This document shows, in pieces, positions 10,901 to 41,800 of a stretch of 64,000 bases of DNA. Position 1 is the stretch's first letter, and each line of letters begins with the position of its first letter. The position numbers and the translations under genes are program-made. The notes beneath the pieces are model-generated. The model was not told where the DNA came from and made no database searches. It was given only the letters and a program-made list of their open reading frames with translations. The stretch is from Pleodorina starrii (Eukaryota > Chlorophyta > Chlorophyceae > Chlamydomonadales > Volvocaceae): assembly GCA_030267565.1 (NCBI GenBank), contig BRXU01000009.1, positions 1,076,001 through 1,140,000 on the forward strand, in the 5' to 3' direction.

Positions 10901-13900
10901 GTGGGGCATAAGAAAAACGATACCGCAGTGGAGGGACGTAGCCCCCACCCACTGATCCATATTACACTCCCTCCCTTCCCCTCCCCTTCCCTTCCCCTCC
11001 CTGCCCCTGCCCCCCTCCCTCCCCTCTCCCCGCCCCAAGGCCACCTGGATGCCGCCACCAGTGCGGTTCTCGAGGCGGCTGTCCGGGGGGTGGGGGGCGC
11101 CGCCGCCCTCGAGTCCGCCAAGCTGCTGAGGGCGAGGGAGCTGCCCCACCGGGCGGCGGCGGAGCTGCAGACCGCCATTGCGGAGTGAGTGGACGGTCCT
11201 GGGGGGGGGGGGGAGATCCGCGGATCGCTGCTTGGGTGGCCCACTTCCGACCCGCGCTGCCACGCATCCGGACCCCCTTCCCCCACCCTCACTTCCCTAC
11301 CCCTACCCCCACCCCACCCCCCTTCCCCTCCCGCTCCGCTGCTCCCCGTGCTGCGCTGCCCCCCGTGCTGTGCTGTGCTCCGTTGCGAAGGCTGGCCGGC
11401 TCCTTGACCCTCAGCGGCGGTGGCGGCGGCGGCGGTGGTGGTGGTGGCGGGGGTGGTGTCGGCTCCTCCGCCTCCTCCGCCTCCGAATCCCGGCGGCTGC
11501 TCGCCCGTCTGAAGCTGTGTGTGGCTCGCTGGTCGGCGGGGGAGGGCGGCTGTGTCCCCGCGGAGCTGCGGCGGCTGTTCGAGGAGGCTCTGGATGCGGA
11601 CAGGGCCTGGGACAAGCCGCACTTCCACTACGCGCGGTGGGGGGGAGGAAGGGGGTGGGAGGAAGGGAGGTGTGCAGCTGCTGCGTGTGTGGTTGCCTGA
11701 CAGGCAGGCAGGCAGGACAGGCAGGCAGGCAGGCGGGCAGCAGCGGGTGACCTCCATTGGCTCGGGGTGTGCGCCGGCCCTGACTGGGACTGGGACTGGG
11801 ACTGGGACTGGGACTGGGACTGGGACTGGGACTGGGACTGGGACTGGGACTGGGACTGGGACTGGGACTGGGACTGGGACTGGGACTGGGACTGGGACTG
11901 GGACTGGGACTGGGACTGGGACTGGGACTGGGACTGGGACTGGGACTGGGACTGGGACTGGGACTGGGACTGGGACTGGGACTGGGACTGGGACTGGGAC
12001 TGGGACTGGGACTGGGACTGGGACTGGGACTGGGACTGGGACTGGGACTGGGACTGGGACTGGGACTGGGACTGGGACTGGGACTGGGACTGGGACTGGG
12101 ACTGGGACTGGGACTGGGACTGGGAGGTGTGTGGGGCGCAGGTGGTCCCTCATTGATTGATGGATGGATGGCGGCTGCTCCCGCGCGCTGATCCGGTGGG
12201 TGTGTCCCCCCCCCTCCACCTCGCCACCTCTCCCCCTCCACCTCTCCCTCTCCTTGCCCCCCCCCGCCACTGCTCCCCCCTCCCCCCCCCTCTCTGCCCC
12301 AGCTACCTGGACGAGCTGTATCAGGACGCCAAGCGCCGCCAGACGGCCACCGGCAGCCGAATGCAGCAGCAGCCCAGCGCCGTGGGGGGGAGGGGGGTGG
12401 CCAACGACAGGTGGGCGGTTCGGGCTTTAGGTGGGTGGGCGACGACGAAAGGGAGGAGGGAGGAGGGGGGAGGGGAGCGAGAGGGCTTCCCCCAGCCCCC
12501 CCCCCCACCCAGGGGCGTGGGGTGGCCCGGCACCCACCCAGACCACCCCGCGCCTGGGTGGGTTGGTCTGGGAGGGTAATGCGCCCGGGTGGGTGGGGCG
12601 GGCGGGCGCTCGGACGCTCCAGTGGATTCGTTGGCAATGAAGCTCGGGGTGCTGGGCGGCAGCGGCGGCGGCAGCGCGTAAGGTTGAAAGCGGTGCCGCA
12701 GCTTTACCGCATGCTGCCCCGCTCCTCCCCCCCCCCGGGTGGCACGCCTCCCTAACCCTGACCCCTCCCCCCCTCCCCCCCAACCCCCATCCCCCCCCCT
12801 CCGCACAGGTTCGGTGGGCGGGCCCGTGTGGCCACCGGTGACGACAAGCAATACTTTGAGTACCTGCCCGATGTGATCCGCCACTACGGGGAGGCCATCA
12901 CCAAGGGACACAAACACGTCATGCAGGTACTGTACGACACGATACGGTGTACCGTACACGGTGTAAAATGCAGTACAGTACAGTACAGCGTCGGGGGCTT
13001 AGGGGCTGTAGGGGTGGGGGCTGGGCAGTATGGGTTGGGGTTCGAGGCATCTGTTGCCGGTTGCGCCCTCACTCGCCAACAATCCTCGTTGTGGCGACAT
13101 TGCACCGCCACCGCCCTTCCCTACCCTACCTCCCCATCTCCCCGGCCCACCGACCGACTAACAACCCCCCCCCACCCCCACTCCTTACCTGCTCCACTCC
13201 TCCCCTACCATCATCCTCCACTTTCCCACCCCTCCCCATATCTCCACCCGCTGCCAGCTTCCTCCCCACACACACCGCCCTCCCCCCCCTAAAACCCTAA
13301 AACCCCGCAACCCCCCGAACCCCCCCCACCCCCGCAGGCCCTCCCCCGCCTGCTGACTCTGTACTGCGAGCACGGCAGCGACCAGATTGCCCGCGGCAGC
13401 GCCGGAGGCGGCGGCGGCGGCGGCGGTATCCGCGGCGCCGCCGCCCCCCGCACCAGTCGCGAGGCTCGTGCCGCCACCGAGGTGCACAACACCATGAAGC
13501 AGCTGGCGGGCAGTGCGGTGGCGCCTCCCAAGTGGCTGCTGGCGCTGCCTCAGCTCATCTCCCGTATCACACACACGCACCAGGAGGTGGGTGGGTGGGG
13601 GTGGGGGGTGGGGGGGGGCGGGTGGGCGCTGTGTGTGTATTTCGTGAGTGGTTTGAATGGCGACTGTTGGTGCACCAACTCCCTGCCCCTCGGGGATACG
13701 CCGAGGCACACACACACTCCGGCTCGCTCCCTCCCCACTCCCCCCGCTTCACCCCCAGGTGGGGGACGTGATCCGTCTGGCTCTGGGTCGGCTGGCGGAG
13801 GCCTTCCCCCAGCAAGTGTTGTGGTCGGCCGCGGCGGTGTGTCGCAGCATCGTGCCGCGCAGGAGGGACCTGGCTAACGAGGTGTTCAAGACGGTGAGGG

Positions 13901-16900
13901 GGGGGGAAGGGGGTGAGGGGAGGGGGAAGGGGGGAGGAGGGGTGGGGGTGAGGGTGAGGGTGAGGGGGGAAAGGAAGAGGGTGAGGGGGGAGGGTGAGGA
14001 GGTGAGGGGGAGGGGGGGAGGGGGGGGCAGAGTGTCACATACACATTGGGGACCACGGCAGCGGGCACGAGAACCTCCTTACCGTACCCTCCTCCCGTCC
14101 TTTCCCCCCTTGCCTATTCAGGCTGCGAATCTTTTCCCCCTCCCCCCTCCCTTTGCAACCTTCCTTTGTTGGCCCCTGCTAAGCTGCCGTACTTGCTCAC
14201 TGCGCTACTCGGCTGGCCCACCGGCGCATCCAATCGAGTCTACGCATTACGAAGTGCTCGCCTCCACCCCCCCCCCGCTGTCTACCTCTCCTCCCCAACC
14301 CCAAACAACCCCTTATACCCCACCCACCCCCCCCTCCACCCCCCAGGTCACCCTCCAGGCCAAGCGAGCTGGCAACTACGGCCTCGTGGTGGGTTGGGGC
14401 CACCCGCCCGTGTGCCGCCGTGTTGGCTCACCTGGGGCGCTTGGGAGGGGGAGAGCGGTGGAGGGAGGGATGGGCGCCAGGGGGCGGATGGCGGGGCATG
14501 AAAGGGGCGCCGTTGTGTGTCGTACACGTTGCGTTGCTTTGGGACGTCTGTGATTGTGTGTGTGTGGGGGGGGGCGGGGCAGGTGGGCGGAGATGGTGGC
14601 TCGCTGCGTGTGTGAGGATTCCTCCCCTTGTCCACATAGTCCCCTTGCACCCTTGATGACTTATCCCCCCTCCTCCCCTGCCCCTCCCCCCCCTCCCTCC
14701 CCTCCCTCCCTGGACCTCAGAGCCTGTTGGAGCAGTTTTCCTCCCTGGCCGATAATCTGATTCGGGTGTGTCACTGGCAGCCCCCTGCCGTACGGTCCAA
14801 TCAGAAGGCCTTCAGCCAGGTGTCCGCACACTCGGAGTTCCCCAATCTGGTGCGACTGCTGCCCTGCGAGGTGAGGGGGGGAGGGAGGAGGGGTGGGGGG
14901 AGCGTGTGGCTGTGTATTGGGAGGGTGGAGCACTTGGCAAACGTTTGCTCCGGCATATGCCCAACCTCCCCCACCCCCCGCGATACAGGAGGCAACAGAC
15001 AGACAGTTGCGACCCCCGCCCGCTCGTTCCTTCGACGTCCTCCACACCCCCATCTTTATACACGCCCCTCCCCCCCCCCCACACACACCCTCCCTCCCTC
15101 CCCTTCAGGTCATGGTTCCCACTCAAGATCAGTTCCGGGCGCCGCTGCCCCCCGCCGCCCTGGGGATGGGGATGGGGATGGGCCGGGCCCTGCACCTGCA
15201 GGAGGGGGGACCCGGGGGGGTTGCGGGAGCGCACCCGGGATCTGGATCTGGATCCAGTGGCGGTCTGGTCAAGATTTCGGGCATACTGGACAAGGTGGAC
15301 ATCATGCAGAGCCTGATGGTGGGTTTGGGTTTGTGGGGGGGGGCGGAGGGCGGGGGGGGTTAAAAGGGGATGGGTTGTCCGGGTATTGAGGGAAGGAAAG
15401 CTCGCCGGGGTTGGGGGTGGGTGGGTGGGTGAGGGCGGCTGGGGGGGGCATTCCTGATCCCCCTCACACTTCGGCCCTTTTATCCACCTTTTCCCCGCCC
15501 CATTCCCCTCCCTGTCCTGTGTCCTCTGTCCTCTCTGTCCCCTGTCCTGCGTCCTCTGTCCTCGTGTCTGGTGTTGACAGAAGCCCAAGAAGCTGACCTT
15601 TATCGGCAGTGACGGGCGGCACTACTCCTTCCTGGCCAAACCAAAGGACGACCTCAGGAAGGACTACCGGTGCGTGCGTGTTGGGCCCATGGGGAGGGGA
15701 GGGGAGGGGGTTGGAGAGGCGGGCCGGGCCGACCCAAACACTGCCCTGCCCCTGCCAGCACACCGCCCCCCCCCCCGCCCCCAGATCTTACGCCCGGCCC
15801 CCGCTCCCCCCCACCCCCCCACCCCCATTCCCCGCCCGCCCCCAGCCTGATGGATTTTGCCGGCCTGCTGAACGCCCTGTTCTGCGGCCACTCCGCCTCC
15901 CGCCGCCGCTCCCTCCGTCTGCGCACCTATGCGGTGGTGGCCCTGACTGAGGACTGCGGTGTACTGCAGTGGGTGGAGGGGCTGCTGCCGCTCAAGGGCG
16001 CCATCGAGGACATTTACGTGTCGGAGCGGGTGTTCAACAGGAGGTGGGGGCCGCGTGGATGTGGTTGTGGATGTGGCTGTGGGGGCAGGGAGGAGGGGTT
16101 CTGGGTGGGGAGGCGGAGGGGGTCCAGGTAGGGGAGTGTGTGTGTATGTACCGTATATGTGTATGCCCGGCGGGTATGAGGTCCTTCCCTCGGCCCCCTT
16201 CCCTTCCCTACCCACGTTTTCTCCCCCCCCCTCCCCCCCCTCCCCAAGGGATTGGATGCATTTTATCCGCAAGCTGTGGGACACCTGGCCCGAGCCCTCC
16301 AACAAGTCCAAGCTGCTGAGCAAGGTGCTGGAGAAGCTGCCCCCCCGACTGCACCGCTGGTTCCTCACCAGGCACCCGGAGCCGGCGGCGTGGCTCAGCG
16401 CGCGGACCAACTTCACACGGTGTGTGTGTGTGTGTGGGGGGGTATCCACGTCTAGGGGGGAGTGAGCTGTGAGAGTGGGGGTAGGGGTGTGTGTGAGGTA
16501 TGAACCTCAGCGATGGGGTGGCGGCGACGTTGGGTGGGTGGACGTGGACGTGGAGGTGGTGGAGGTTGAGGGTTGAGGGTTTGGGGAGGGGGGGGTGTCG
16601 GGATGGGCGGATGCTGTGTGAGGGCCCTCACAGAGGGGTGTGACCATACCCATATACCCATACACCCATACACCCATACACCCATATACCCATATACCCA
16701 TATACCCATACACCCATATACCCATATACCCATATACCCATACACCCATATACCCATATACCCATACACCCATACACCCATATACCCATATACCCATACA
16801 CCCATATACCCATATACCCATATACCCATATACCCATATACCCATATACCCATATACCCATACACCCATATACCCATATACCCATATACCCATATACCCA

Positions 16901-19900
16901 TATACCCATATACCCATATACCCATATACCCATACACCCATACACCCATACACCCATATACCCATACACCCATATACCCATATACCCATATACCCATATA
17001 CCCATATACCCATATACCCATATACCCATATACCCATATACCCATACACCCATATACCCATACACCCATACACCCATACACCCATACACCCATACACCCA
17101 TATACCCATATACCCATACACCCATACACCCATACACCCATACACCCATATACCCATACACCCATACACCCATATACCCATATACCCATATACCCATACA
17201 CCCATATACCCATACACCCATACACCCATACACCCATATACCCATACACCCATACACCCATATACCCATATACCCATATACCCATACACCCATATACCCA
17301 TACACCCATACACCCATATACCCATATACCCATACACCCATATACCCATATACCCATACACCCATACACCCATACACCCATACACCCATATACCCATACA
17401 CCCATACACCCATACACCCATATACCCATATACCCATACACCCATATACCCATATACCCATACACCCATATACACATATACCCATACACCCATATACCCA
17501 TATACCCATACACCCATATACCCATACACCCATACACCCATATACCCATACACCCATATACCCATATACCCATATACACATATACCCATATACCCATACA
17601 CCCATACACCCATACACCCATATACCCATATACCCATACACCCATATACCCATATACACATATACACATATACCCATATACCCATACACCCATACACCCA
17701 TACACCCATACACCCATACACCCATACACCCATACACCCATACACCCATATACCCATACACCCATATACCCATATACCCATACACCCATATACCCATATA
17801 CCCATATATCCATACACCCATATACCCATATACCCATATACCCATATACCCATATACCCATATACCCATATACCCATACACCCATATACCCATATACCCA
17901 TATACCCATATACCCATATACCCATACACCCATATACCCATATACCCATACACCCATACACCCATATACCCATACACCCATACACCCATATACCCATACA
18001 CCCATACACCCATATACCCATATACCCATATACCCATATACCCATATACCCATATACCCATACACCCATATACCCATACCCATACCCATATTACCCATAC
18101 CCATACCCATATTACCCATACCCATACCCATACCCATATTACCCATATACCCATACCCATACCCATATACCCATATACCCATATACCCATACACCCATAT
18201 ACCCATATACCCATATACCCATATACCCATATACCCATATTACCCATACCCATACCCATATTACCCATACCCATACCCATATTACCCATACCCATACACC
18301 CATATACCCATATACCCATATACCCATATACCCATATACCCATATACCCATACACCCATATACCCATACACCCATATACCCATATACCCATACACCCATA
18401 CACCCATATACCCATACACCCATATACCCATACACCCATACACCCATATACCCATATACCCATATACCCATACACCCATATACCCATACCCATATACCCA
18501 TATACCCATACCCATATACCCATATACCCATATACCCAATACCCATATACCCATATACCCATACACCCATACTAACCCATACCAATACCCCATACCCATA
18601 TACCCATATACCCATACACCCATATACCCATATACCCATACCCATACCCATATAACCCATACCCATACCCATAATACCCATACACACATATACCCATATA
18701 CCCATACCCCCATATACCCATACCCATATACCTATATACCCATACCCATATACCCATACCCATACACCCAATACCCATACCATACCCATATTACCCATAC
18801 CCATACCCATATTACCCATACCCATAAACAAAATACCCATACCCATACACCCATAACCCATATACCCATACCCATATACCCATACCCAATATACCCATAC
18901 ACCCATACCCATACATCCCATTACCCATACCCATATTACCCATACCCATACCCATATTACCCATACCCATACCCATATTACTCATACCATACCCATATTA
19001 CCCATACCCATACCCATACACCCATACACCCATATACCCATACACCCATAAACCCATATACCCATATACCCATACACCCAAATACCCATACCCATATACC
19101 CATATACCCATACCCATATACCCATATACCCATACCCATACTACCCATATACCCATATACCCATACCCATATACCCATATACCCATATACCCATATACCC
19201 ATATACCCATACCCATATACCCATACCCATACCCATATACCCATATACCCATATACCCATACCCATATACCCATATACCCATACACCCATATTACCCATA
19301 CCCATATACCCATATACCCATACCCATACCCATATACCCATACCCATATACCCATATACCCATACACCCATATACCCATACCCATACCCATATACCCATA
19401 CCCATACCCATACACCTATATACACATATACCCATATACCCATATACCCATATACCCATACACCCATATACCCATACCCATACCCATATTACCCATACCC
19501 ATACCCATATTACCCATACCCATACCCATATTACCCATACCCATATACCCATATACCCATACCCATATACCCATATACCCATATACCCATATACCCATAC
19601 CCATATTACCCATAACCCATATACCCATACCCATACCCATACCCATATACCCATACCCATATACCCATATACCCATACCCATACCCATATACCCATACCC
19701 ATACCCATATTACCCATACCCATATACCCATATACCCATACCCATAACCATATTAACCAGACCCATACCCATATTACCCATAACCATACCCATATACACA
19801 TATACCCATACACCCATATACCCATATACCCATACACCCATATACCCATATACCCATATACCCATACCCATATACCCATATACCCATACCCATATACCCA

Positions 19901-22900
19901 TATACCCATACCCATACCCATACCCATATACCCATACACCCATACCCATATACCCATACTACCCATATACCCATACCCATATACCCATATACCCATACCC
20001 ATATTACCCATACCCATATTACCAATACCCATACCCATATGACCCATACCCATATTAACCATACCCATACCCATATTACCCATACCCATACCCATATTAC
20101 CCATACACCCATACACCCATACACCCATATACCCATACCCATATACCCATACCCATACCCATATTACCCATACCCATATACCCATATACCCATACCCATA
20201 TACCCATATACCCATACCCATATACCCATATACCCATATGACCCATACCCATATACCCATACACCCATACACCCATATACCCATACACCCATATACCCAT
20301 ATACCCATACACCCATACACCCATATACCCATACACCCATACACCCATATTACCCATACCCATACCCATATTACCCATACCCATACCCATATTACCCATA
20401 CACCCATATACCCATACACCCATACACCCATATACCCATATACCCATACACCCATATACCCATACACCCATATACCCATATACCCATATACCCATACCCA
20501 TATTACCCATACCCATACCCATATTACCCATACCCATACCCATATTACCCATAACCATACCCATATTACCCATACCCATACCCATACCCATATTACCCAT
20601 ACCCATACCCATATTACCCATACCCATACCCATATTACCCATACCCATAACCAAAATACCCATACCCATACCCATATTACCCATAACCATACCCATATTA
20701 CCCATACCCATACCCATATACCCATACACCCATACACCCATATACCCATATACCCATATACCCATACACCCATACACCCATATACCCATACACCCATACC
20801 CATATTAACCTACCCATACCCATATACCCATATACCCATATACCCATATACCCATACACCCATATACCCATACACCCATACACCCATATACCCATATACC
20901 CATACACCCATATACCCATATACCCATATACCCATACACCCATACACCCATATTACCCATACCCATACCCATATTACTCATACCCATACCCATATTACCC
21001 ATACCCATATTACCCATACCCATACCCATATACCCAACCCCATACCCATAATACCCTTATCCATATTACCCATAACCCATACCCATATTACCCATACCCA
21101 TACCCATATATACCCATACCCATATTACCCATACCCATACCCATATTACCACATACCCATAACCAATATTACCCAACTCATACCCATATTACCCATAGAC
21201 CCATATTACCCATACCCATGATTACCCATACCCATAAACCCATATTACTCATAACCCATATTAACCATACCCATACCCATATTACCCATACCCATACCCA
21301 TATTAACCATACCCATACCCATATTACCCATACCCATACCCATAATAACCCATACCCAATACCCATATTAATCATGACCCATGACCCATAGTACCCATAC
21401 CCATAGACCCCATACCCATATTACCCATTAACCATATTACCCATACCCATACCCCATATTACCCATACCCATATACCCATATACCCATACCCATATACCC
21501 ATAACCCATACCCATATACCCATACCCATATACCCATATACCCATACCCCATATACCCATACCCATACCCATATTACCCATACCCATATACCCATACCCA
21601 TATACCCATATACCCATACCCATACACCCATACTACCCATATACCCATACCCATATACCCATATACCCATACCCATATACCCATACACCCATACCCATAT
21701 TACCCATAACCCATATACCCATATACCCATACCCATACACCCATATTACCCATACCCCATACCCATATACCCATACCCATACCCATATACCCATACCCAT
21801 ATACCCATAACCCATACACCCATATACCCATACCCATACCCATATACCCATACACCCATAAACCCATATACCCATATACCCATATACCCATATACCCATA
21901 TACCCATACACCCATATACCCATATACCCATATACCCATATACCCATACCCATACCCATATTACCCATACCCATACCCATATTACCCATACCCATACCCA
22001 TATTACTCATACCCATATTACCCATACCCATACCCATATTACCCATACCCATTACCTTACCCTATACCCATACCCATACCCATATTACTCATACCCATAT
22101 ACCCATACCCATACCCATATTACCCATACCCATACCCATATTACCATACCATACCCATATTACCCATACCCATACCCATATACCCATACCCATACCCTTA
22201 TACCCATACCCATACCATATTACCCATACCCCATATTCATACCCATACCCATATTACTCATAGCCACCCATTTTACCCTATTCAAATTACCATACCTAAT
22301 TACCCATATTACTCATACCCATATTACCCATACCCTTTACCAATATTACCCATACCCATATCCCATATTACCCATACTCCATATTACTCTTATTACCCAT
22401 TACCCATACCCATACCCATATTACCCATACCCATACCCATATTACCCATACCCATACCCATATTACCCATACCCATACCCATATAACCCATACCCATAAC
22501 CAAAATACCCATACCCATATTACCCATACCCATATTACCCATACCCATACCCATATTACCCATACCCATATTACCCATACCCATACCCATATTACCCATA
22601 CCCATACCCATATTACCCATACCCATACCCATATTACCCATACCCATATTACCAATACCCATACCCATATGACCCATACCCATATGACCCATACCCATAT
22701 TAACCATACCCATACCCATATTACCCATACCCATACCCATATTACCCATACCCATACCCATATTACCCATACCCATACCCATATTACCCATACCCATACC
22801 CATATTACCCATACCCATATTACCCATACCCATACCCATATTACCCATACCCATATTACCCATACCCATACCCATATTACCCATATACCCATATACCCAT

Positions 22901-24353
22901 ACACCCATACCCATATTACCCATACCCATACCCATATTACCCATACCCATATACCCATACACCCATATACCCATACACCCATATACCCATATACCCATAC
23001 ACCCATATACCCATATACCCATATACCCCATACCCATACCCATATTACCCATACCCATACCCATATTACCCATACCCATATTACCCATATTACCCATACC
23101 CATACCCATATTACCCATACCCATACCCATATTACCCATACCCATACCCATATTACCCATACCCATACCCATATTACCCATACCCATACCCATATTACCC
23201 ATACCCATACCCATATTACCCATACCCATACCCATACCCATATACCCCATACCCATACCCATATTACCCATACCCATACCCATATTACCCATACCCATAC
23301 CCATATTACCCATACCCATACCCATATTACCCATACCCATACCCATATTACCCATACCCATACCCATATTACCCATACCCATATTACCCATATTACCCAT
23401 ACCCATATTACCCATATTACCCATATTACCCATACCCATACCCATACCCATATTACCCATACCCATACCCATATTACCCATACCCATACCCATATTACCC
23501 ATACCCATACCCATATTACCCATACCCATATTACCCATATTACCCATACCCATATTACCCATACCCATATTACCCATACCCATACCCATATTACCCATAC
23601 CCATACCCATATTACCCATACCCATATTACCCATATTACCCATACCCATACCCATATCACCCATACCCATACCCATATTACCCATACCCATACCCATATT
23701 ACCCATACCCATACCCATATTACCCATACCCATATTACCCATACCCATACCCATATTACCCATACCCATACCCATACCCATATTACCCATACCCATACAC
23801 CCATATACCCATATACCCATACACCCATATACCCATACACCCATACACCCATATACCCATACACCCATATACCCATACACCCATACACCCATATACCCAT
23901 ACACCCATATACCCATATACCCATATACCCATATACCCATACCCATATTACCCATACCCATACCCATATTACCCATACCCATACCCATATTACCCATACC
24001 CATACCCATATTACCCATACCCATATTACCCATATTACCCATACCCATATTACCCATACCCATATTACCCATACCCATATTACCCATACCCATACCCATA
24101 TTACCCATACCCATACCCATATTACCCATACCCATATTACCCATACCCATACCCATATTACCCATACCCATATTACCCATACCCATATTACCCATACCCA
24201 TATTACCCATACCCATACCCATATTACCCATACCCATACCCATATTACCCATACCCATACCCATATTACCCATACCCATATTACCCATATTACCCATACC
24301 CATACCCATATTACCCATACCCATACCCTTATTCCGCATACCCATACCCATAT

Positions 24354-24385
<32 letters not shown>

Positions 24386-27300
24386 TTACCCATACCCATA
24401 CCCATATTACCCATACCCATACCCATACCCATATTACCCATACCCATACCCATATTACCCATACCCATATACCCATACACCCATACACCCATATACCCAT
24501 ATTACCCATACCCATATTACCCATATTACCCATACCCATATTACCCATACCCATACCCATATTACCCATACCCATACCCATATTACCCATACCCATACCC
24601 ATATTACCCATATTACCCATACCCATATTACCCATACCCATACCCATATTACCCATACCCATACCCATACCCATATTACCCATACCCATACCCATATTAC
24701 CCATACCCATACCCATATTACCCATACCCATATTACCCATACCCATATTACCCATACCCATACCCATATTACCCATACCCATACCCATATTACCCATACC
24801 CATACCCATATACCCATATACCCATACACCCATATACCCATATACCCATACACCCATATACCCATACCCCAAATACCCATACCCATATTACCCATACCCA
24901 TATTACCCATACCCATACCCATATTACCCATACACCCATATACCCATATACCCATACACCCATATACCCATATACCCATACACCCATATACCCATACCCA
25001 TATTACCCATACCCATACCCATATTACCCATACCCATACCCATATTACCCATACCCATACCCATATTACCCATATACCCATACACCCATATACCCATATT
25101 ATCACAACCCATACCCATATTACCCATACCCACACCCATATTACCCATACCCATACCCATATTACCCATACACGTACCCATATTACCCATACACATACCC
25201 ATATTACCCATACCCATATTACCCATATTACCCATACCCATATTACCCATATTACCCATACCCATATTACCCATACCCATACCCATACCCATAATACCCA
25301 TACCCATACCCATATACCCCATACCCATACCCATATTACCCATACCCATACCCATAAACCCATACCCATATACCCATATACCCATACCCATATACCCATA
25401 TACCCATACCCATACCCATACCCATATACCCATACCCATACCCATATACCCATACCCATACCCATATTACCCATACCCATATACCCATACCCATATACCC
25501 ATACCCATACCCATATTACCCATACCCATAACCCATATACCCATACCCATACCCATATTACCCATACCCATACCCATACACCCATATACCCATATTACCC
25601 ATACCCATACCCATATTACCCATACCCATACCCATATAACCCATACCCATACCCATATTACCCATACCCATACCCATATTACCCATACACATAACCTTAT
25701 TACCCATACCCATACCCATATTACCCATACCCATACCCATATTACCCATACCCATACCCATATACCCATACACCCATATACCCATATACCCATACCCATA
25801 CCCATATTACCCATACCCATACCCATATTATCACAACCCATACCCATATACCCATACACCCATACACCCATATACACATACACCCATATACACATATACC
25901 CATATACCCATACACCCATATACCCATATACCCATATACCCATACACCCATATACCCATACACCCATATTACCCATACCCATACCCATATTACCCATACC
26001 CATACCCATATTACCCATACTCATACCCATATTACCCATACCCATATTACCCATACCCATACCCATATACCCATATACCCATATACCCATACACCCATAT
26101 ACCCATATACCCATATACCCATATTACCCATACCCATATTACCCATACCCATATTACCCATATTACCCATACCCATATTACCCATACCCATATTACCCAT
26201 ACCCATATACCCATATACCCATATACCCATACACCCATATACCCATACACCCATACACCCATACACCCATACACATACCCATATTACCCATACCCATACC
26301 CATATTACCCATACCCATACCCATATTACCCATACCCATATTACCCATACCCATACCCATATTACCCATACACGTACCCATATTACCCATACACATACCC
26401 ATATTACCCATACCCATACCCATATTACCCATACCCATACCAATATTACCCATACCCATACCCATATTACCCATACCCATACCCATATTACTCATACCCA
26501 TATTACCCATACCCATACCCATATTACCCATACCCATATTACCCATACCCATACCCATATTACCCATACCCATACCCATATTACCCATACCCATACCCAT
26601 ATTACCCATACCCATACCCATATTACCCATACCCATATTACCCAATACCCATACCCAAATTACCCATACCCAGATGACCCATATTACCCATACCCATTAC
26701 CCATATTACCATACCAATATTACCCATACCCATACCCATATTACCCATAGCCCATACCCATAGTACCCATACTCAGACCCATATTCCAACCCATATTACC
26801 CATACCCATATTACCCATATTCCCTTACCCATATTACCCTTACCCATACCCATATACCCATACCCATATACCCATATACCCATACCCATATTACCCATAC
26901 CCATAACCCATATTACCCATACCCATATACCCATATACCCATACACCCATACCCATATTACCCATACCCATACCCATATACCCATACCCATACCCATATT
27001 ACCCATACCCATACCCATATACCCATACCCATACCCATATTATCACAACCCATACCCATAAACCTATTACCCATACCCATACCCATATTACCCATATACC
27101 CATACCCATATTACCCATACCCATACCCATATACCCATACCCATAACCCATATTACCCATACCCATACCCATATTACCCATACCCATACCCATATACCCA
27201 TACCCATATACCCATATACCCATACCCATATTACCCATACCCATACCCATATACCCATACCCATATACCCATATACCCATACCCATATACCCATAACCCA

Positions 27301-27962
27301 TATCACCCATACCCATATTACCCATACCCATACCCATATTACCCATACCCATACCCATATTACCCATACCCATACCCATATTACCCATACCCATACCCAT
27401 ATACCCATATACCCATATACCCATACACCCATATACCCATATACCCATATACCCATATACCCATATACCCATACCCATATTACCCATACCCATACCCATA
27501 TTACCCATACCCATATTACCCATACCCATACCCATATTACTCATACCCATACCCATATTACCCATACACCCATATACCCATATACCCATATACCCATATA
27601 CCCATATACCCATACACCCATACACCCATATTACCCATACCCATACCCATATTACCCATACCCATACCCATATTACCCATACCCATACCCATATTACCCA
27701 TACCCATATTACCCATATTACCCATACCCATACACCCATATACCCATATTACCCATACCCATACCCATATGACCCATACCCATATGACCCATACCCATAT
27801 TAACCATACCCATACCCATATTACCCATACCCATACCCATATTACCCATACCCATATTACCCATACCCATACCCATATTACCCATACCCATAAAACAAAT
27901 ACCCATACCCATACCCATATTACCCATACCCATACCCTTATTCCACATACCCATACCCATAT

Positions 27963-27994
<32 letters not shown>

Positions 27995-30900
27995 TACCCC
28001 ATACCCATACCCATATTACCCATACACCCATATACCCATATACCCATACACCCATATACCCATACACCCATATATCCATACACCCATATACCCATATTAC
28101 CCATACCCATATTACCCATACCCATACCCATATTACCCATACCCATAATACCCATATTACCCATACCCATACCCATATTACCCATACCCATAACCATATT
28201 ACCCATACCCATACCCATATTACCCATACCCATACCCATATTACCCATACCCATACCCATATTACCCATACCCATACCCATATTACCCATACCCATACCC
28301 ATATTACCCATACCCATACCCATATTACCCATACCCATATTACCCATATTACCCATACCCATATTACCCATACCCATACCCATATTACCCATACCCATAC
28401 CCATATTACCCATACCCATACCCATATTACCCATACCCATATTACCCATATTACCCATACCCATACCCATATTACCCATACCCATATTACCCATACCCAT
28501 ACCCATATTACCCATACCCATATTACCCATATTACCCATACCCATATTACCCATACCCATACCCATATTACCCATACCCATATTACCCATATTACCCATA
28601 CCCATATTACCCATACCCATACCCATATTACCAATACCCATACCCATATTACCCATACCCATACCCATATTACCCATACCCATATTACCCATATTACCCA
28701 TACCCATACCCATATTACCCATACCCATATACCCATATACCCATATACCCATACACCCATATACCCATATACCCATACACCCATACACCCATATACCCAT
28801 ATACCCATACACCCATACACCCATATACCCATATTACCCATACCCATACCCATATTACCCATACCCATACCCATATTACCCATACACCCATATACCCATA
28901 TACCCATACACCCATACACCCATACACCCATATACACATATACCTATATACCCATATTACCCATACCCATACCCATATTACCCATACCCATACCCATATT
29001 ACCCATACCCATACCCATATTACCCATACACCCATACACCCATATACCCATACACCCATATACCCATATACCCATATACCCATATACCCATATACCCATA
29101 CACCCATATACCCATATACCCATACACCCATATACCCATATACCCATACCCATATTACCCATACCCATACCCATATACCCCATACCCATACCCATATTAC
29201 CCATACCCATACCCATATTACCCATACCCATACAACACATACCCATACCCATACCCATACACCCATATACCCATACACCCATATACCCATACCCATACCC
29301 ATATACCCATACCCATACCCATATTACCCATACCCATACCCATATTACCCATACCCATACCCATATTACCCATACCCATATTACCCATACCCATACCCAT
29401 ATTACCCATACACCCATATACCCATATACCCATACACCCATATACCCATATACCCATACACCCATATACCCATATACCCATATACACATATACACATATA
29501 CCCATACACCCATATACCCATATACCCATACACCCATATACCCATATACCCATATACCCATATACCCATATACCCATATACCCATATACCCATATACCCA
29601 TATACCCATATACCCATACACCCATATACCCATATTACCCATACCCATACCCATATTACCCATACCCATACCCATATTACCCATACCCATATACCCATAT
29701 ACCCATACACCCATATACCCATATACCCATACACCCATACACCCATATACCCATATACCCATACACCCATATACCCATATACCCATATTACCCATACCCA
29801 TATTACCCATACCCATACACCCATATACCCATATACCCATATACCCATAAACCCATAAACCCATATACCCATAAACCCATAAACCCATATACCCATAAAC
29901 CCATACCCATATACCCATACCCATACCCATATACCCATACCCATATACCCATATACCCATATACCCATACCCATATTACCCATACCCACACCCATATTAC
30001 CCATACCCATACCCATATACCCATATACCCATATACCCATACACCCATACACCCATATACCCATACACCCATATACCCATACACCCATATACCCATACAC
30101 CCATACCCATATTACCCATACCCATACCCATATTACCCATACCCATATTACCCATACCCATATACCCATATACCCATACACCCATATACCCATATACCCA
30201 TACACCCATATACCCATATACCCATACACCCATACACCCATATACCCATATACCCATACACCCATATACCCATATACCCATACACCCATATACCCATACA
30301 CCCATATACCCATATACCCATATACCCATATACCCATATACCCATACACCCATACACCCATATACCCATATACCCATACACCCATATACCCATATACACA
30401 TATACCCATATACCCATATACCCATACACCCATACACCCATACACCCATACACCCATATACCCATACACCCATATACCCATATACCCATATACCCATATA
30501 CCCATATACCCATACACCCATATACACATATACCCATATACCCATATACCCATACACCCATACACCCATATACCCATATACCCATATACCCATATACCCA
30601 TATACCCATATACCCATACACCCATATACCCATACACCCATACACCCATATACCCATACACCCATACACCCATATACCCATACACCCATATACCCATATA
30701 CCCATATACACATATACCCATATACACATATACCCATATACCCATATACCCATATACCCATATACCCATATACCCATATACCCATACACCCATACACCCA
30801 TATACACATATACCCATATACCCATATACCCATACACCCATACACCCATATACCCATATACCCATACACCCATACACCCATACACCCATACACCCATACA

Positions 30901-33900
30901 CCCATATACCCATATACCCATACACCCATACACCCATATACACATATACCCATATACCCATATACCCATACACCCATATACCCATATACCCATATACCCA
31001 TATACCCATACACCCATATACCCATACACCCATACACCCATATACCCATACACCCATACACCCATATACCCATACACCCATATACCCATATACCCATATA
31101 CACATATACCCATATACCCATACACCCATACACCCATATACCCATATACCCATACACCCATATACCCATACACCCATATACCCATACACCCATACACCCA
31201 TATACCCATACACCCATATACACATATACCCATATACCCATACACCCATACACCCATATACCCATATACCCATACACCCATATACCCATATACCCATATA
31301 CACATATACCCATATACCCATATACCCATATACCCATATACCCATATACCCATATACCCATATACCCATACACCCATATACCCATACACCCATACACCCA
31401 TATACCCATACACCCATACACCCATATACCCATATACCCATATACCCATATACACATATACCCATATACCCATATACCCATATACCCATATACCCATACA
31501 CCCATATACCCATATACCCATATACCCATACACCCATATACACATATACACATATACACATATACACATATACACATATACCCATATACCCATATACCCA
31601 TACACCCATACACCCATATACCCATACACCCATACACCCATATACCCATACACCCATACACCCATATACCCATATACCCATATACCCATATACACATATA
31701 CCCATATACCCATATACCCATATACCCATATACCCATACACCCATATACCCATATACCCATATACCCATACACCCATATACACATATACCCATACACCCA
31801 TATACCCATATACCCATACACCCATATACACATATACCCATATACCCATATACCCATACACCCATATACACATATACCCATACACCTATATACACATATA
31901 CCCATATACCCATATACCCATATACCCATACACCCATATACCCATACACCCATATACCCATACACCCATATACCCATACACCCATACACCCATACACCCA
32001 TATACCCATACACCCATATACCCATACACCCATACACCCATATACCCATACACCCATATACCCATATACCCATATACCCATATACCCATATACACATATA
32101 CCCATATACCCATATACCCATACACCCATATACCCATATACCCATACACCCATATACCCATATACCCATATACCCATATACCCATATACCCATATACCCA
32201 TATACCCATATACCCATACACCCATATACCCATATACCCATACACCCATATACACATATACCCATACACCCATATACCCATATACCCATACACCCATATA
32301 CACATATACCCATACACCCATATACACATATACCCATATACCCATATACCCATATACCCATGCCCATGACCCATAGGCCGAACCCATAGGCCGACCCATA
32401 GGCCGACCCATAGGCCGACCTGTAGGCCGACCCATAGGCCGACCCGTAGGCCGACCCATAGGCCGACCCATAGGCCGACCCATAGGCCGACCCGTAGGCC
32501 GACCCGTAGGCCGACCCACAGACTGACCCATAGGTCGACCCATAGGGCGACCCGTAGGCCGACCCATAGGCCGAACCCTAGGCCGACCCATAGGCCGACC
32601 CATAGGCCGATTCGTAGGCCGACCCATAGGCCGACCCGTAGGCCGACCCATAGGCCGACCCATAGGCCGAACCTTAGGCCGACCCAAGGGCCGACCCGTA
32701 GGCCGACCCGTAGGCCGGCCCATAGGCCGACCCGTAGGCCGACCCGTAGGCCGACCCATAGGCCGACCCGTAGGTCGACCCGTAGGCCGACCCATAGGCC
32801 GACCCGTAGGCCGACCCATAGGCCGACCCGTAGGCCGACCCATAGGCCGAACCCATAGGCCGACCCATAGGCCGACCCGTAGGCCGACCCATAGGCCGAA
32901 CCCTAGGCCGAACCCTAGGCCGACCCATAGGCCGACCCATAGGCCGACCCATAGGCCGACCCATAGGCCGACCCGTAGGCCGACCCGTAGGCCGACCCGT
33001 AGGCCGACCCGTAGGCCGACCCGTAGGCCGACCCATAGGCCGACCCGTAGGTCGACCCATAGGCCGACCCGTAGGTCGACCCATAGGCCGAACCCATAGG
33101 CCGACCCATAGGCCGAACCCATAGGCCGAACCCATAGGCCGACCCATAGGCCGACCCATAGGCCGACCCGTAGGCCGACCCGTAGGCCGACCCATAGGCC
33201 GACCCATAGGCCGACCCATAGGCCGACCCGTAGGCCGACCCATAGGCCGACCCATAGGCCGACCCGTAGGTCGACCCGTAGGCCGACCCATAGGCCGACC
33301 CGTAGGCCGACCCATAGGCCGACCCATAGGCCGATTCTTAGGCCGAACCCATAGGCCGACCCATAGGCCGACCCATAGGCCTACCCGTAGGCCGACCCAT
33401 AGGCCGACCCGTAGGCCGACCCATAGGCCGACCCATAGGCCGACCCGTAGGCCGACCCGCAGGCCGACCCACAGACTAACCCATAGGTCGACCCATAGGC
33501 CGACCCGTAGGCCGACCCATAGGCCGAACCCTAGGCCGAACCCTAGGCCGACCCGTAGGCCGACCCGTAGGCCGACCCATAGGCCGACCCATAGGCCGAC
33601 CCATAGGCCGACCCATAGGCCGAACCCTAGGCCGACCCATAGGCCGACCCATAGGCCGACCCATAGGCCGACCCATAGGCCGACCCATAGGCCGAACCCT
33701 AGGCCGACCCATAGGCGGGCCCATAGGCCGACCCATAGGCCGACCCATAGGCCGACCCGTAGGCCGACCCATAGGCCGACCCGTAGGCCGACCCGTAGGC
33801 CGACCCATAGGCCGACCCATAGGCCGACCCATAGGCCGACCCGTAGGCCGACCCATAGGCCGACCCATAGGCCGACCCATAGGCCGACCCGTAGGCCGAC

Positions 33901-35879
33901 CCATAGGCCGACTCATAGGCCGACCCATAGGCCGACCCATAGGCCGACCCATAGGCCGACCCGTAGGCCGACCCATAGGCCGACCCGTAGGCCGAACCAT
34001 AGGCCGAACCATAGGCCGACCTATAGGCCGACTCATAGGCTGACACATAGGCCGACTCATAGGCCGACACATAGGCCGACCCTGACCCTGACCCTGACCC
34101 TCCCCCCCACCCGCCAGCACCAACGCCGTGTGGTGTATGGTGGGTCACATGCTGGGTCTTGGCGACCGGCACGGAGAGAACATCATGCTTGACAGCACGT
34201 GTGGGGACACGGTGCACGTGGACTTCGGCTGCCTGTTCGACAAGGGACTGACGCTGGAGGTGGGCGAGGAGGGGGAGGAGAGGGTGTGAGGGGCTGAGGC
34301 AGAGGGGGGGGAGAAGGAGGAGGGGTAGGAGGGGGAGGGGATGGTGTTGTGCCGGGGAGTATGGGTGGGGGAGAGGGAGGGGAATGAGAGTAGGGTCGCA
34401 GTCAAGGAAGCGAAGTGGCGAACGGACACGGCAACACCTCGCAGCTGTATCTGGGATGGGGAGAGGGAAGGGAGGGGGAGAGGGGTTGCCGCGTGAAGGG
34501 GGATGTCTGACTGGCCTGCTGCGTTGATGCGCTGGGGGGAGGGGAGGGGGAGGGGAGGGCCCCGGGGAGGGAAGGAAAGGGGAGGGGAGGGAAGGGGAGG
34601 GGAGAAGGAGGCTCCATGATGTGCCTGAAAGTACCGCACTCGCCTCCTCCATCAGCCTCCTAATGGTCATGAGGCTCATGACTGACTGGTTTCATCCTTT
34701 CCCTCCATCCTGCCCATTCTCCTGCCCATTCTCCTGCCCATTCCTCTGCCCCTCCCCTCCCCTGCCCCTCCCCCCCTGCCCCTGTCCCTCCAGATTCCGG
34801 AGATGGTTCCCTTCCGGCTCACTCAGAACGTGGTGGATGGATTCGGTATCAACGGAGTGGAGGGCGTGTACCGCCGCTGCTGCGAAATAACGCTGCAGGT
34901 GGGGCCGAAGCGGGGGGCAGGGAGAGGGGGAGGGGGAGAGCGGGAGGTAGGCGTAGACAAAGGGGAAAACCCCAATTTTCTTTCAATCCACACTCTCATT
35001 TCCCCCTCCTCACGCCAATCCACTGCGGTCGGCCATACACTAAAACCCTAAAACCCTAAAACCCACTGGTGTGTTCCTTCAGGTCCTCCGACAGCACCGG
35101 GACACGCTGATGACGTGTGCGGAGACGTTCCTGCACGACCCGCTGGTGGAGTGGAGCAGCAGACCGCAGGGGGGGAAGGGGGCGCAGATGGTGCAGGTGG
35201 GGGGCAGTGTGTGTGGGGGGGGAGGGAGGGAGGGCGGGAGGGGCGGGCGTGTGTGGGTGTGTTGGTGGAGGGAGCGGGGGCGGTTGCCAAAAGGGGGGAG
35301 GAAGGGGAGCGGTAAGGGGGCAGTGAAAGCGACAGGGGCGGGAAGGGGGGCAGCCGGATTCGGGCAGGAGTTGGGGGAAACCGGGCGATGCTTTAACTTG
35401 GCGACCTGGATATTGGGAGGGCGGGGGGGGTGCGATGACCGACTCCCACACTTCCGCGTTTTTCCTTCGAACCGCAGTTCTAACTTTCCCCACGACACAC
35501 CACATATCTTCGGTGTCGTTTCGCCCAATCCCCTGCGTTCCTGACACTCCCCCTCCTTCGCCCTCCATTCCTCCCCTCTCACCCTCCCTCTCACCCTCCC
35601 ACCCACCCACTCATACACATACACACACACGTGCACCCCCTCCCCCCACCCCCTCCCCCTCCCCCTCTCTTTCAGGATGGCGGTCTGGAGGCCGAGAACC
35701 CCGCCGCCAAGGACGCCCTGGCCACCATTGAGGGGCGGCTCAGCGGCACCCTGCTGGGGGTGGCGGCGGTGCCTACCCTGCCGCTGTCGGCTGAGGGCCA
35801 GGCGGCGCGGTTGATCAGTGAGGCCACCGACAAAGAGAACCTGGGCCGCATGTACGTGTGGTGGATGCCCTGGTACTGA
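1..35879 (+). CDS. ATR: ATR serine/threonine checkpoint kinase (PIKK family), 5'-truncated by window edge
   Basis: ATR is the nuclear PI3K-like kinase that senses RPA-coated single-stranded DNA (with ATRIP) and activates the replication checkpoint. I assembled 39 exons in consistent phase, about 2,177 codons, ending at a TGA at 35877-35879; animal and plant ATR are roughly 2,600-2,700 residues, so the missing part is N-terminal. ATR rather than ATM or TOR is indicated by [10 protein letters not shown] in the N-lobe, [17 protein letters not shown] and ALPRLLTL in [15 protein letters not shown] and VHVDFGCLF in the catalytic region, [10 protein letters not shown], and a FATC end of the form MYVWWMPWY. 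The coding sequence carries Gly, Ala and Gln runs absent from other ATRs as I know them. Exon coordinates are in the four domain entries. The window starts inside or at the end of an exon (1-10), whose phase is uncertain. Family assignment is very secure; individual exon edges are less so. Confidence 0.93.
1511..1800 (+). repeat. 12-bp minisatellite in ATR intron 4
   Basis: Tandem, imperfect units of the form TCACCTCATACC, with TCACCCCATACC and TAACCCCATACC variants, fill most of the 3' half of intron 4 (1396-1846). The array sits just upstream of the acceptor and contributes to its pyrimidine-rich character. Confidence 0.85.
11782..12125 (+). repeat. Perfect hexanucleotide array (GGGACT) in ATR intron 25
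   Basis: About 57 uninterrupted copies of GACTGG/GGGACT without a visible mismatch over roughly 344 bp, in the intron between exons 11391-11636 and 12303-12410. Every unit has a GGG triplet on the transcribed (sense) strand. Stop-free frames through it (Asp-Trp, Gly-Thr, Pro-Val and Pro-Ser dipeptides) are by-products and not coding. Confidence 0.95.
13289..13312 (+). repeat. Short telomere-like CCCTAAAA motif in ATR intron 27
   Basis: Two adjacent CCCTAAAA units followed by a partial third. The complement is TTTTAGGG, the Chlamydomonas-type telomere repeat. Too short to be more than an interstitial motif. Confidence 0.45.
15109..16419 (+). other. ATR: ATR exons 32-35: kinase domain N-lobe and start of C-lobe
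   Basis: Exons: 15109-15318, 15581-15669, 15846-16043, 16249-16419 (visible residues about 1768-1990). Exon 33 encodes the glycine-rich loop region ([16 protein letters not shown]) and [10 protein letters not shown], whose first lysine is the expected ATP-binding residue. Exon 34 encodes [21 protein letters not shown], matching the beta-strand and hinge segment of ATR. Exon 35 encodes [20 protein letters not shown], the helical segment just ahead of the catalytic loop, and ends in phase 2 at TNFTR. Exon 32 has a GSGSGS insertion from GGATCT repeats, the same hexamer as in exon 20. The domain is then interrupted by the 17.7 kb satellite intron. Confidence 0.9.
16646..18075 (+). repeat. 8-bp satellite block A (ACCCATAT / ACCCATAC)
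   Basis: Nearly pure tandem 8-bp units that differ at one position, TACCCATA versus CACCCATA, with rare TACACATA units. Very long stop-free frames on both strands (Tyr-Thr-His-Ile-Pro or Met-Gly-Ile-Trp-Val-Tyr patterns) result from the 24-bp reading period and are not genes. Confidence 0.97.
18076..30150 (+). repeat. Mixed CCCATA satellite block B (6-, 15- and 21-bp units, with 8-bp islands)
   Basis: The core CCCATA is repeated two or three times and separated by TTA, giving 15-bp and 21-bp units, interspersed with islands of the 8-bp type (for example 19800-19860, 23800-23940, 28730-28820, 29400-29640). Degenerate stretches with many single-base changes lie at about 21030-22390 and 26640-27060. 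Rare variants recur far apart, showing internal kilobase-scale copying. No unrelated sequence of any length interrupts the block. Confidence 0.95.
30151..32365 (+). repeat. 8-bp satellite block C with a 240-bp higher-order repeat
   Basis: The 8-bp TACCCATA/CACCCATA units return, with more TACACATA variants than block A. The segment at about 31381-31545 recurs nearly unchanged at 31621-31785, a 240-bp offset equal to thirty 8-bp units. Confidence 0.95.
32366..34100 (+). repeat. 12-bp satellite block D (CCCATAGGCCGA), ATR intron copy
   Basis: Tandem 12-bp units, mostly CCCATAGGCCGA and CCCGTAGGCCGA, with occasional 13-bp units (extra A) and CCCTAGGCCGAA forms. The left edge grades into block C through ACCCATGCCCATGACCCATAGG. 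The right edge ends in several CCTGAC units directly before the exon 36 acceptor. Each unit has a GGCC palindrome. Confidence 0.96.
34118..35879 (+). other. ATR: ATR exons 36-39: catalytic loop, activation segment and FATC
   Basis: Exons: 34118-34259, 34794-34898, 35083-35196, 35676-35879 (visible residues about 1990-2177). Exon 36 opens with [19 protein letters not shown], containing the catalytic Asp, His and Asn (DRHGEN), and then the metal-binding VHVDFGCLF. It joins exon 35 in phase across intron 35, giving ...FTRTNAVW..., which is the proof that both halves belong to one gene. Exon 37 encodes [17 protein letters not shown], exon 38 [10 protein letters not shown], and exon 39 the regulatory linker and FATC ([20 protein letters not shown], ending in Trp-Met-Pro-Trp-Tyr). 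All catalytic residues I can check are present, so the gene appears functional if the long intron is spliced. Confidence 0.92.
35040..35064 (+). repeat. Short telomere-like CCCTAAAA motif in ATR intron 37
   Basis: Three near-perfect CCCTAAAA units about 20 bp upstream of the acceptor of exon 38. This is a second independent occurrence of the TTTTAGGG-type unit in the same gene. Confidence 0.5.
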
Positions 35880-38874: not shown

Positions 38875-41800
38875 ATGGCTTTTTGCAGTTGGTTACAAAT
38901 TTTCCTTTTAGCAAGCCTAGCTATTGTACATACCAGAGCGCAGGCCACCGGTTCTTTGACTAGGAACGCCGCGGTCCTGCTGTCGTCTAACTCCAACAAC
39001 AACACGCAGCTGGCCATCCGAGATGGAAACGGTACGTGTTTTGGATTATCAACAACTAAGACATTAGAACATATCCTAGACGAACACTAAGCTACACTGG
39101 CCCGTCGTGCGACCTGCGACCTCACAACTTTGTGGCAAGCGTCTTCGCTGTGATGCCCGCTAAACTGTAAATTGATTCCAGGCTCATTCACATAGTTATC
39201 CCTCCGCCCAAATCGATCCTCGCGCCAACTCCTGCGATGTTACTCACACCCGTCCGTTTCGGTCACCTTCCGGCCATCCACCAGACACCACTATGTGGCA
39301 GAGCGACGCGTGCTTCCCCAACTCCTACATCACACGCCCGGAGATGAACGCCCTTTACTGGCGATGCAACACCACCGCCGCCTGCACCGCCTCGGCCGGG
39401 TCGTCTAACTTGTACGGCGCTACGGACGGCAGTACGGGCACCAGCTCGGCCTCCATAGCCCTCCCCGCCGGCACCGCTTCCGCCTGGTTCCGTGTCGCCC
39501 TGCCAGCCCCCACAAACGTTACCCGCCTCGGCATCCGCGGCTTGTTCAATTCGAAAGCTGCCAACACGTTGTTCGTTGAGCTGTCGTCCGGTGTACGGCT
39601 TCCCGTACTGTACAACGCAACCAGCTACCAAACCATTCCCGTGCTCGGCAACTGGACGGACGTGACCGCCCTTCTGATCAATTCCACCCTCTCCTTTTCG
39701 GTTTCGGAGATTGCCGCACAGTACGGCGGCTGCTACGAGAACGCCACCGTGGATCTGGGTGCCGTACAGACCCTTGGGTCAATCCGGTACGGCGGGCGAT
39801 GCGGGGAGCGATTGTGGAGTGGAGCCAAATGGTAGTGTGCACTCGAGCACCCAGATATGTCCCATTTGCTCTCGAGTTCTTCCATCAAGCCCGGTTCGCC
39901 CGCCCGCCCGCCCACCCGTCCCCCCGCCCGCCCGCCCGCCCTCCCCACAGCATCCGCTACTGGCCCGGGCCCGCCGGCCTGGCCTCCTGGCTCCTGGTTT
40001 CGGAGGATGGAGTCACGTACCGGGATGTGGTTTCGGAGGTTCTGGGTCGGCCGCCCCTCAATACCAGCCTGCTCAGCGCACTGACCCTCACCCTGCCCAC
40101 ACCGCTGAGGGTGAGATGGGGAGGTTTGTGTGTCCTCCTCCTCCTCCTCCTCTTCTGCGATGGCAGTCATCCCTCCCTCCAGCCCAAGGGGGAGCACACA
40201 CGTGGCTTCGCTTTCTTACACAGACCTGTATGTGTGGCTTCTCTTTCGGGTTGTAAATTGCCCCCAAGGACACAAATGAGGCCCCTGGCACGCTCTGCTC
40301 CCTCTCCCGGACCTCCTGGGGGCCATGTCCACCTTCCAACCCCGCTTTCCCCTTCGTCTCCGTCGCGTTCTGCCGTTTCCCAGGCTCGCTACCTCTCCGT
40401 GCGTCACAAGGTGGATGAGAGCGACTGGGCCAAGGTGTACGTGTGGGGCATTGACGCCTTCGCGCCGCCGCCGTCACCACCCTCGCCCGCACCCTCGCCG
40501 CCGCCCTTCCCTCCGCCCTCTCCGTCTCCGCCCGCTCCCCCTTCGCCGAATATCCCCTGGGACAACTTTGCGGGGACGGTCCGGGCGTACAGCTACCGAG
40601 GGTGAGGTCAGGGGTGAGGCCTGGGGGGAAGCTCGTTTGGTGCAGTAGTGGATGGCGGACGTTAGCAAAACAAATGGGAGTTTTTGTACTCCCCTGCACT
40701 GCCCGGTGACTTTCGCGGTGTTGTGGGGTCGCTCTTACTGTCACCAACATCGCTACCTCCCCTCCTCCTCGCAGCAAGGTCGCTGTCTCCACCAACCCCG
40801 ACCCAAAGGCCCTCCCCCAAATCGCCGACGGGGACGACAACACGATGTGGCAGAGCGACGCATGCCTGCCAACCGGATACACCGGCCGACCCGCCATGAA
40901 CCCCCTCATGCAACTCTGTGGCGGCACCGGCCCAGCTGGCGCACCCGCGTCGTACTGTACGGCATCTAATGGCTCAAAGGAACTGTCGAACGCTACAGAT
41001 CTGAACGTCTACACGGGCGCCATAATCGCCGTCGACCCCGTCCGCGCCGCCGCTGGTGTTGATGACGGCGCCGCGTTTTTCTCGGCGATGATTCCTGGAG
41101 ACCCGCGGGTCGTTACCCGCGTCAGCTACAAGGGCTTTTCCAGCTCCAAGGTCTTCGTGGTGTTGCTGATTCAGCCGCCGGGCAAGGATGTGAAGAGGGT
41201 ATCGGTGGGGCTGATCTACCCGGCGGTCAACTATCAGTGGCTGCATGCCGTGGGGAAGTGGCAGGTACGGCCTTGTTGGGGGCGGGGAGGTTTAAACAAG
41301 GGTTTAAATATGTTCTGCTAAAGGTAGACCGACGGCGCTTGCGACATAGCTATCGCTACTCTGGCGATGACCTTCTTTGCTTTCCGGCCCCGCCCTTCCC
41401 ATTGCTCGATCTGGAATGCCCTTCCCCGCCTGCCATATACCCCCACCCGCCCCCCCCCCACACACACACACCGCCCCCACGTGTCGATCAGAACGTGGTG
41501 GGTGTGCGTCTGGAGTCCAGCCGCTCGTTCACGCTGACTGAGGTGGCGGTGATGGCCGCGCCCTGCATTGAGTGGGCGACTGTGGATATGGGGGCCATTC
41601 GGGAGGTGGGAACACTCAGGTGGGTGAGGGGAGGCTGGGTGAGTCCCTCGTCTTGCGCTTAGCCCCCTCCCCCTGCGGTCAGCATTATTAGCTGCACTTC
41701 CGCGGTTCTGCTGCCACTGCTGACCTCCGCCTCCCTCATCTGCAGGTTCCGGTTTTGGTCCCCCGATGCGGAGTACACCAACATGTCTGTGTCGGCGGAT

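Follow-up and report, generated by a model that had tools for sequence, protein, structure and literature searches.

A 17.7-kb satellite-filled intron inside the kinase domain of ATR in the green alga Pleodorina starrii

The window analyzed here is the whole 64,000-nucleotide stretch between positions 1076001 and 1140000 of contig C9 of Pleodorina starrii, and positions are counted from its first letter unless a contig is named. The genome that was searched comprises 136,057,477 bases in 95 contigs. According to the gene model, an ATR gene on the plus strand begins upstream of the window and ends with a stop codon at 35879. In the upstream flank (C9:1056001-1076000, L025-L026) lies a further model, which resembles a cysteinyl-tRNA synthetase by its sequence. 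The ATR model was built by dynamic programming and its 3' end was corrected by hand; its introns are predictions. The features at its 3' end are as follows.

16249..16419, plus strand: ATR exon upstream of the array, ending in phase 2 (..NFT-CG|); gene model, matches human and green-algal ATR
16420..34117, plus strand: GT-AG intron of ATR, phase 2, 17,698 bp; gene model
16420..16645, plus strand: 5' non-repeat part of the intron with the donor, 226 bp, G-rich
16646..32361, plus strand: 8-bp satellite array, unit ATACCCAT and variants (ATATACCC / ATACACCC), 15,716 nt
32362..34082 (32368-34082 by TRF), plus strand: 12-bp satellite array, unit GACCCATAGGCC, 1.7 kb
34083..34117, plus strand: 3' non-repeat end of the intron with the acceptor cgccag, 35 bp, C-rich
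34118..34259, plus strand: ATR exon with the catalytic loop GDRHGEN and the DFG motif; gene model, P0121 starts at an internal Met here
34794..34898, plus strand: ATR exon; gene model
35083..35196, plus strand: ATR exon (VLRQHRD..); gene model
35676..35879, plus strand: last ATR exon with the FATC domain and the stop codon; gene model and Pfam

The joined exons were analyzed for the identity of the encoded protein. The Pfam scan, which covered the C-terminal 460 amino acids, identified a PI3_PI4_kinase domain (PF00454, profile positions 2-241 of 241, E 9.8e-52) and, C-terminal to it, a FATC domain (PF02260, profile positions 1-32 of 32, E 4.1e-15). Among solved structures, human ATR matches the same 460 residues with 331 bits (E 1e-97), and the alignment is unbroken at the exon junction. 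The bit scores with other family members are 238 for Mec1, 207 for Tel1, 206 for SMG1, 198 for ATM, 190 for mTOR and 125 for DNA-PKcs. The gene is ATR, being nearer to ATR and Mec1 than to ATM, mTOR, SMG1 or DNA-PKcs. For a 541-residue region of the product, the closest proteins among the best 120 of 2,061 are those of Volvox reticuliferus (82% identity) and Chlamydomonas reinhardtii (72%). The search of the assembly found one locus for ATR; the remaining kinase matches are weaker, with 31-66% identity.

A sequence-only reading of this DNA had described a satellite-filled intron of 17.7 kb in ATR, with flanking exons that join in phase inside the kinase domain. Both statements were confirmed. 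The exons border the intron as ..CACACG|gtgtgt at 16419 and cgccag|CACC.. at 34118, and the split codon CG|C encodes an arginine. Tandem repeats make up 98.5% of positions 16420-34117, with the repeat span taken as 16646-34082, and the non-repetitive remainder amounts to 226 + 35 = 261 bp. The same reading had placed the intron "immediately before" the DRHGEN loop, which is fair wording because the catalytic aspartate is residue 16 of the downstream exon. Translation into a retained intron would add 15 residues before a stop codon, and the catalytic loop would be lost. The reading as one gene with one intron is supported, as is the claim that about 17 kb of repeat must be transcribed and spliced for ATR to be produced. 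In a position-weight model of the modelled splice sites of ATR itself, the donor ACG|GTGTGT is weak and ranks 39th of 43, a ranking biased against GTGTGT because G at +5 was favoured when the gene was modelled. The acceptor ranks 26th of 43.

All other ATR introns had been said to be shorter than about 0.7 kb. This is borne out only for the later part of the gene, where the 42 other modelled introns between 3.2 kb upstream of the window and the stop codon (38 of them starting in the window) measure 57-666 bp; towards the 5' end, where the model is less certain, gaps of 721 and 1,229 bp occur. The shortest intron, of 57 bp (1291-1347), is probably a model error, since relatives encode protein at this place (C. 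reinhardtii P0002). The median of all 43 modelled introns, the giant one included, is 290 bp. A G-rich first half combined with a C-rich second half occurs in 31 of the 42 others. Another ATR intron harbors 57 perfect copies of GACTGG over 344 bp (11782-12125), with neither GT nor AG on the sense strand and 57 of each on the antisense strand. ATR introns also carry two short tracts of CCCTAAAA, the Chlamydomonas-type telomere repeat, with two perfect copies each (13287-13302 and 35046-35061). An Rfam scan of the window gave no match at the gathering score, and a literature search on this ATR intron found no paper describing it.

The two arrays of the intron differ in their distribution in the genome. 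The 8-bp array is nearly private to the ATR locus: an exact 24-mer of its main unit has 202 matches in the 136-Mb genome, 184 of them inside the ATR intron, and the remainder comprises six at one place on C1 among the matches listed and 12 others. A 24-mer of a variant unit has 42 matches, with 27 in the ATR intron, 11 on C4 and four on C6. The 12-bp array belongs to a satellite family that occurs throughout the genome. A 36-mer of this unit was found 321 times in forward and 812 times in reverse orientation, with 12 matches in the ATR intron, and the reversed control gave none. Among the matches listed, the 12-bp unit clusters on C11 near 0.90-0.93, 1.31 and 2.63-2.66 Mb.

A second array of the same 12-bp family, 2.6 kb long, lies at 60312-62944 of the window. 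A coding-potential scan around it showed no segment within 6 kb to the left and minus-strand segments to the right. Elsewhere, C9:767001-777000 (L029) and C11:183001-193000 (L030) are 100% identical over at least 9,905 bp, including a 2.6-kb array of the 12-bp unit; either the segment was duplicated recently or the assembly contains it twice by error. Carriage of the 12-bp satellite by a transposon, considered on account of identical spacings on C9 and C11, was rejected for this pair, as the stretch of at least 9.9 kb is 100% identical throughout. The window also contains a tandem duplication (about 39277-47153 and 50788-58684; 13 aligned pieces at offsets of 11.4-11.8 kb, 83-98% identity), with one ORF per copy that matches the F5/8 type C domain below the Pfam cut-off.

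Within the 8-bp array, the flanks are pure 8-mers with a spacing of 8 nt, whereas the centre is mixed with 6-mers (ATACCC) and 9-mers (ATATTACCC), and over about 22.6-28.6 kb the spacings of 6 and 9 nt dominate. This centre is less regular than the clean flanks, and all 22 G residues of the RNA-like strand fall between 19760 and 27786. Both observations would fit an assembly in which the intron and its array are real and the length and the centre are wrong through collapse, expansion or garbling during long-read consensus, contig merging and gap filling. The array length rests on one assembly, taken as that of strain NIES-4479, for which quickmerge was used to combine the output of two assemblers and TGS-GapCloser and pilon were used to fill gaps, as described in PMC10256686. 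The contig of a public P. starrii protein from this locus (P0121, see below) is only 37.5 kb long and was perhaps broken at repeats, which is a guess. However, both ends of the array join one gene in phase, and the 95 contigs (136.1 Mb) of this bisexual strain are described as gap-free and the reads as high-fidelity (PMC10256686). The longest exact internal repeat of the array is 186 nt, so that long reads should be placeable. Some complex variant units recur, for instance ATATTATCACAACCC three times, as random read error would not produce. Misassembly of this kind, which would be compatible with an inflated intron, is rather unlikely in our judgment. It is likewise unlikely that the array joins two different loci, as its two flanks complement each other within the one ATR locus that was found.

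Protein fragments of relatives hint that an intron may be present at the same codon in other Chlamydomonadales. P0138, a fragment from Haematococcus and a partial model, has TNAVWC as its very first residues, and the NCBI protein P0214 reads ..LPPCS|TNAVWC.. and ..LTLE|VRGSR..PMQ|VPEM, which looks like read-through of both neighbouring introns. In P. starrii, the 181-residue protein PLESTF_001002500 (P0121), whose prefix is taken as that of the female strain, is 100% identical to the end of ATR over the residues common to both. Its first residue is a Met inside the exon behind the array, which counts against an intact, spliced ATR. The downstream part could then be a separate gene or dead, and no full ATR would be made. 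Such a split would also agree with the premature stop upon intron retention and with the protein searches, which admitted lengths of 0.55-1.75 times the query and, among the matches listed (120, 120 and 71 proteins), yielded neither an intact ATR named as P. starrii nor any other protein of that name. However, the splice borders and the phase are kept, the 541-residue region has retained its high identity to Volvox reticuliferus ATR, and a second ATR locus was not found in the assembly. Volvox reticuliferus and Chlamydomonas reinhardtii share the six residues TNAVWC that directly precede the Met of P0121, as expected if these residues are still spliced on. Funannotate uses a small maximum intron size, and a pipeline with such a setting would cut a gene like this one anyway. 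The starts of P0121 and of Haematococcus P0123, which both lie at the Met right after TNAVWC, are what automatic annotation would give once the upstream exon is lost. A broken ATR in P. starrii is therefore considered very improbable, and the conserved frame, splice sites and residues indicate that the ATR exons are probably spliced across the array. The annotated ATR of Chlamydomonas schloesseri (P0241, 2,947 residues) stops within the FAT region and lacks a precomputed kinase or FATC domain; other algal annotations may thus also contain a cut ATR.

The strands of the arrays differ strongly in composition. In the 15,716 nt of the 8-bp array the RNA-like strand contains 22 G, with four GT and nine AG dinucleotides, and the opposite orientation contains 2,437 GT and 37 AG. 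Pieces of 301 nt of the sense RNA have a predicted folding energy of 0.0 kcal/mol in three of three places, compared with -28 to -64 kcal/mol for the antisense. The sense strand of the 12-bp array harbors 48 GT and 142 AG (138 of them as TAG), its antisense strand harbors 145 GT, and a 301-nt sense piece is predicted to fold with -112 kcal/mol. UGUAA is a poly(A) signal, and its lack was considered as a strand-specific reason; this was rejected, as the motif is absent from both strands of the intron.

R-loops favour G-rich RNA and a positive GC skew. Over 18001-32000, the RNA-like strand has a GC skew of -0.98 to -1.0. This opposite, G-poor skew speaks against the R-loops that the sequence-only reading had invoked, as far as sense transcription is concerned. 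The same reading had called the array difficult to replicate. This is plausible only in terms of potential G-quadruplexes on the template strand, on which G3N1-7 motifs cover 14,343 of the 15,716 nt of the 8-bp array, against 0 on the coding strand. In the remainder of the window (46,302 nt), the corresponding values are 3,206 on the plus and 2,572 on the minus strand. Formation of G-quadruplexes on the template strand is possible on the basis of these motifs.

The orientation of tandem arrays relative to genes was also compared at other loci. The comparison covered the ATR region (L025, L026, the window and L027) and 14 further loci, all 14 chosen because they contain these satellites; L030 had been excluded beforehand as an identical copy of L029. 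Arrays were counted when coding segments of the same strand lay within 2.5 kb on both sides, with gene strands taken from a coding-potential scan, and the intron's own 12-bp array failed this filter. Tandem arrays between same-strand coding segments exist at other loci as well. Among 35 arrays of at least 80 bp, GT is rarer on the sense strand in 20, more frequent in 13 and equal in two; among the 16 of at least 200 bp it is rarer in 12 and more frequent in four. GC skew is unbiased, being negative in 17 and positive in 18 of the 35. Several arrays belong to one 12-bp family and are not independent, and one locus (L035) may be intergenic. A general rule of GT-poor sense strands is thus suggestive at best, since the arrays are dependent, the strands scan-based and the loci satellite-chosen, and GC skew is unbiased. 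In a bolder form, splicing would filter satellites by strand, and in this genome they would expand within introns only if their RNA lacks GU donors; in a stronger form still, the length of the array would set ATR output under replication stress. We regard this proposal as doubtful. If the strand filter were true, the ATR intron with its four GT in sense and 2,437 in antisense over 15.7 kb would be its extreme case, and introns could reach tens of kilobases at little cost.

As the likely explanation, we propose that an ordinary ATR intron of about 260 bp was inflated to 17.7 kb and is passively tolerated, probably still spliced and without a regulatory role. Published median intron lengths of six core-Reinhardtinia species are 198-343 bp (PMC8226300), and the 261 bp that are left without the arrays fit both these values and the modelled ATR median. 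The ancestral intron would have been of normal size, at a site probably common to other Chlamydomonadales. It may have grown by local tandem amplification, that is by slippage and unequal exchange of an 8-bp motif containing CCC, next to a short array of the common 12-bp satellite of this genome. The flanking exons would most likely still be spliced in the ordinary way to yield ATR mRNA. We propose that the near absence of G from the RNA strand makes the array tolerable: hardly any GU donors or AG acceptors would be there as competitors of the real sites, and no folding is predicted for the 8-bp part. The array itself would have no regulatory role. The 12-bp part, with its GT and AG dinucleotides and its predicted folding, is not silent, which counts against tolerance through a lack of decoy sites.

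Satellite-filled introns are a kind already known, of which the ATR intron is a new and striking member. In spinocerebellar ataxia type 10, intron 9 of human ATXN10 is reported to contain a G-free ATTCT repeat of up to 22.5 kb (PMC2883596). It resembles the ATR intron in having kilobases of a short repeat without G on the RNA strand inside an intron, but it is a human disease expansion, whereas the ATR array has the unit ATACCCAT and is known from the DNA of one assembly. The expanded ATXN10 intron is stated to be normally spliced, with reference to an earlier study by the same authors, and the cells shown there carried about 1,000-2,000 repeats (PMC2883596). The spliced-out repeat RNA is described as aggregating and being toxic to cells (PMC2883596); a G-free repeat therefore need not be harmless. 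In the Drosophila Y-linked genes kl-3 and kl-5, the exons of one gene are likewise parted by introns of nearly pure satellite (PMC6508621, PMC11207136). These introns are reported to be transcribed and spliced (PMC6508621, PMC11207136), whereas the ATR array is known from DNA. They extend over megabases, a scale that the 17.7 kb of ATR do not reach, and they belong to spermatocyte genes that have dedicated RNA-binding proteins, whereas ATR is a DNA-damage kinase of a haploid alga. Larger introns are described as harder to splice in Drosophila, and repeats as probably slowing polymerases (PMC11207136), which counts against easy tolerance of the ATR array. Compared with introns of its own lineage, the ATR intron falls within the core-Reinhardtinia medians when the arrays are removed and is about 50 to 90 times as long when they are included (PMC8226300).

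These precedents also bear on the sequence-only proposal that array length is coupled to ATR dosage, which is speculation. If the array were regulatory, its length or structure (R-loops or G-quadruplexes) would set the amount of full-length ATR and tie the state of the repeat to the replication-stress response. The dense G-quadruplex motifs of the template strand would agree with this, as would the loss of the catalytic loop upon intron retention and the report that perturbed splicing of giant-intron genes in Drosophila attenuates transcription (PMC11207136). However, the GC skew of the RNA strand opposes R-loops, and the reportedly normal splicing of the expanded G-free intron in ATXN10 (PMC2883596) weighs mildly against coupling of length and dosage. 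A regulatory array is accordingly rated as very improbable.

Passive inflation of an ordinary intron thus remains the reading we prefer. The finding also warns that genes of this kind may be split by annotation, so that ATR is hidden in gene lists. It offers a testable rule, namely that a G-poor strand in the RNA would decide which satellites can grow inside introns. The ATR intron would be a compact natural test of splicing against kilobases of pure satellite in an important gene, in a host that is a haploid, culturable alga with genomes assembled for three strains.
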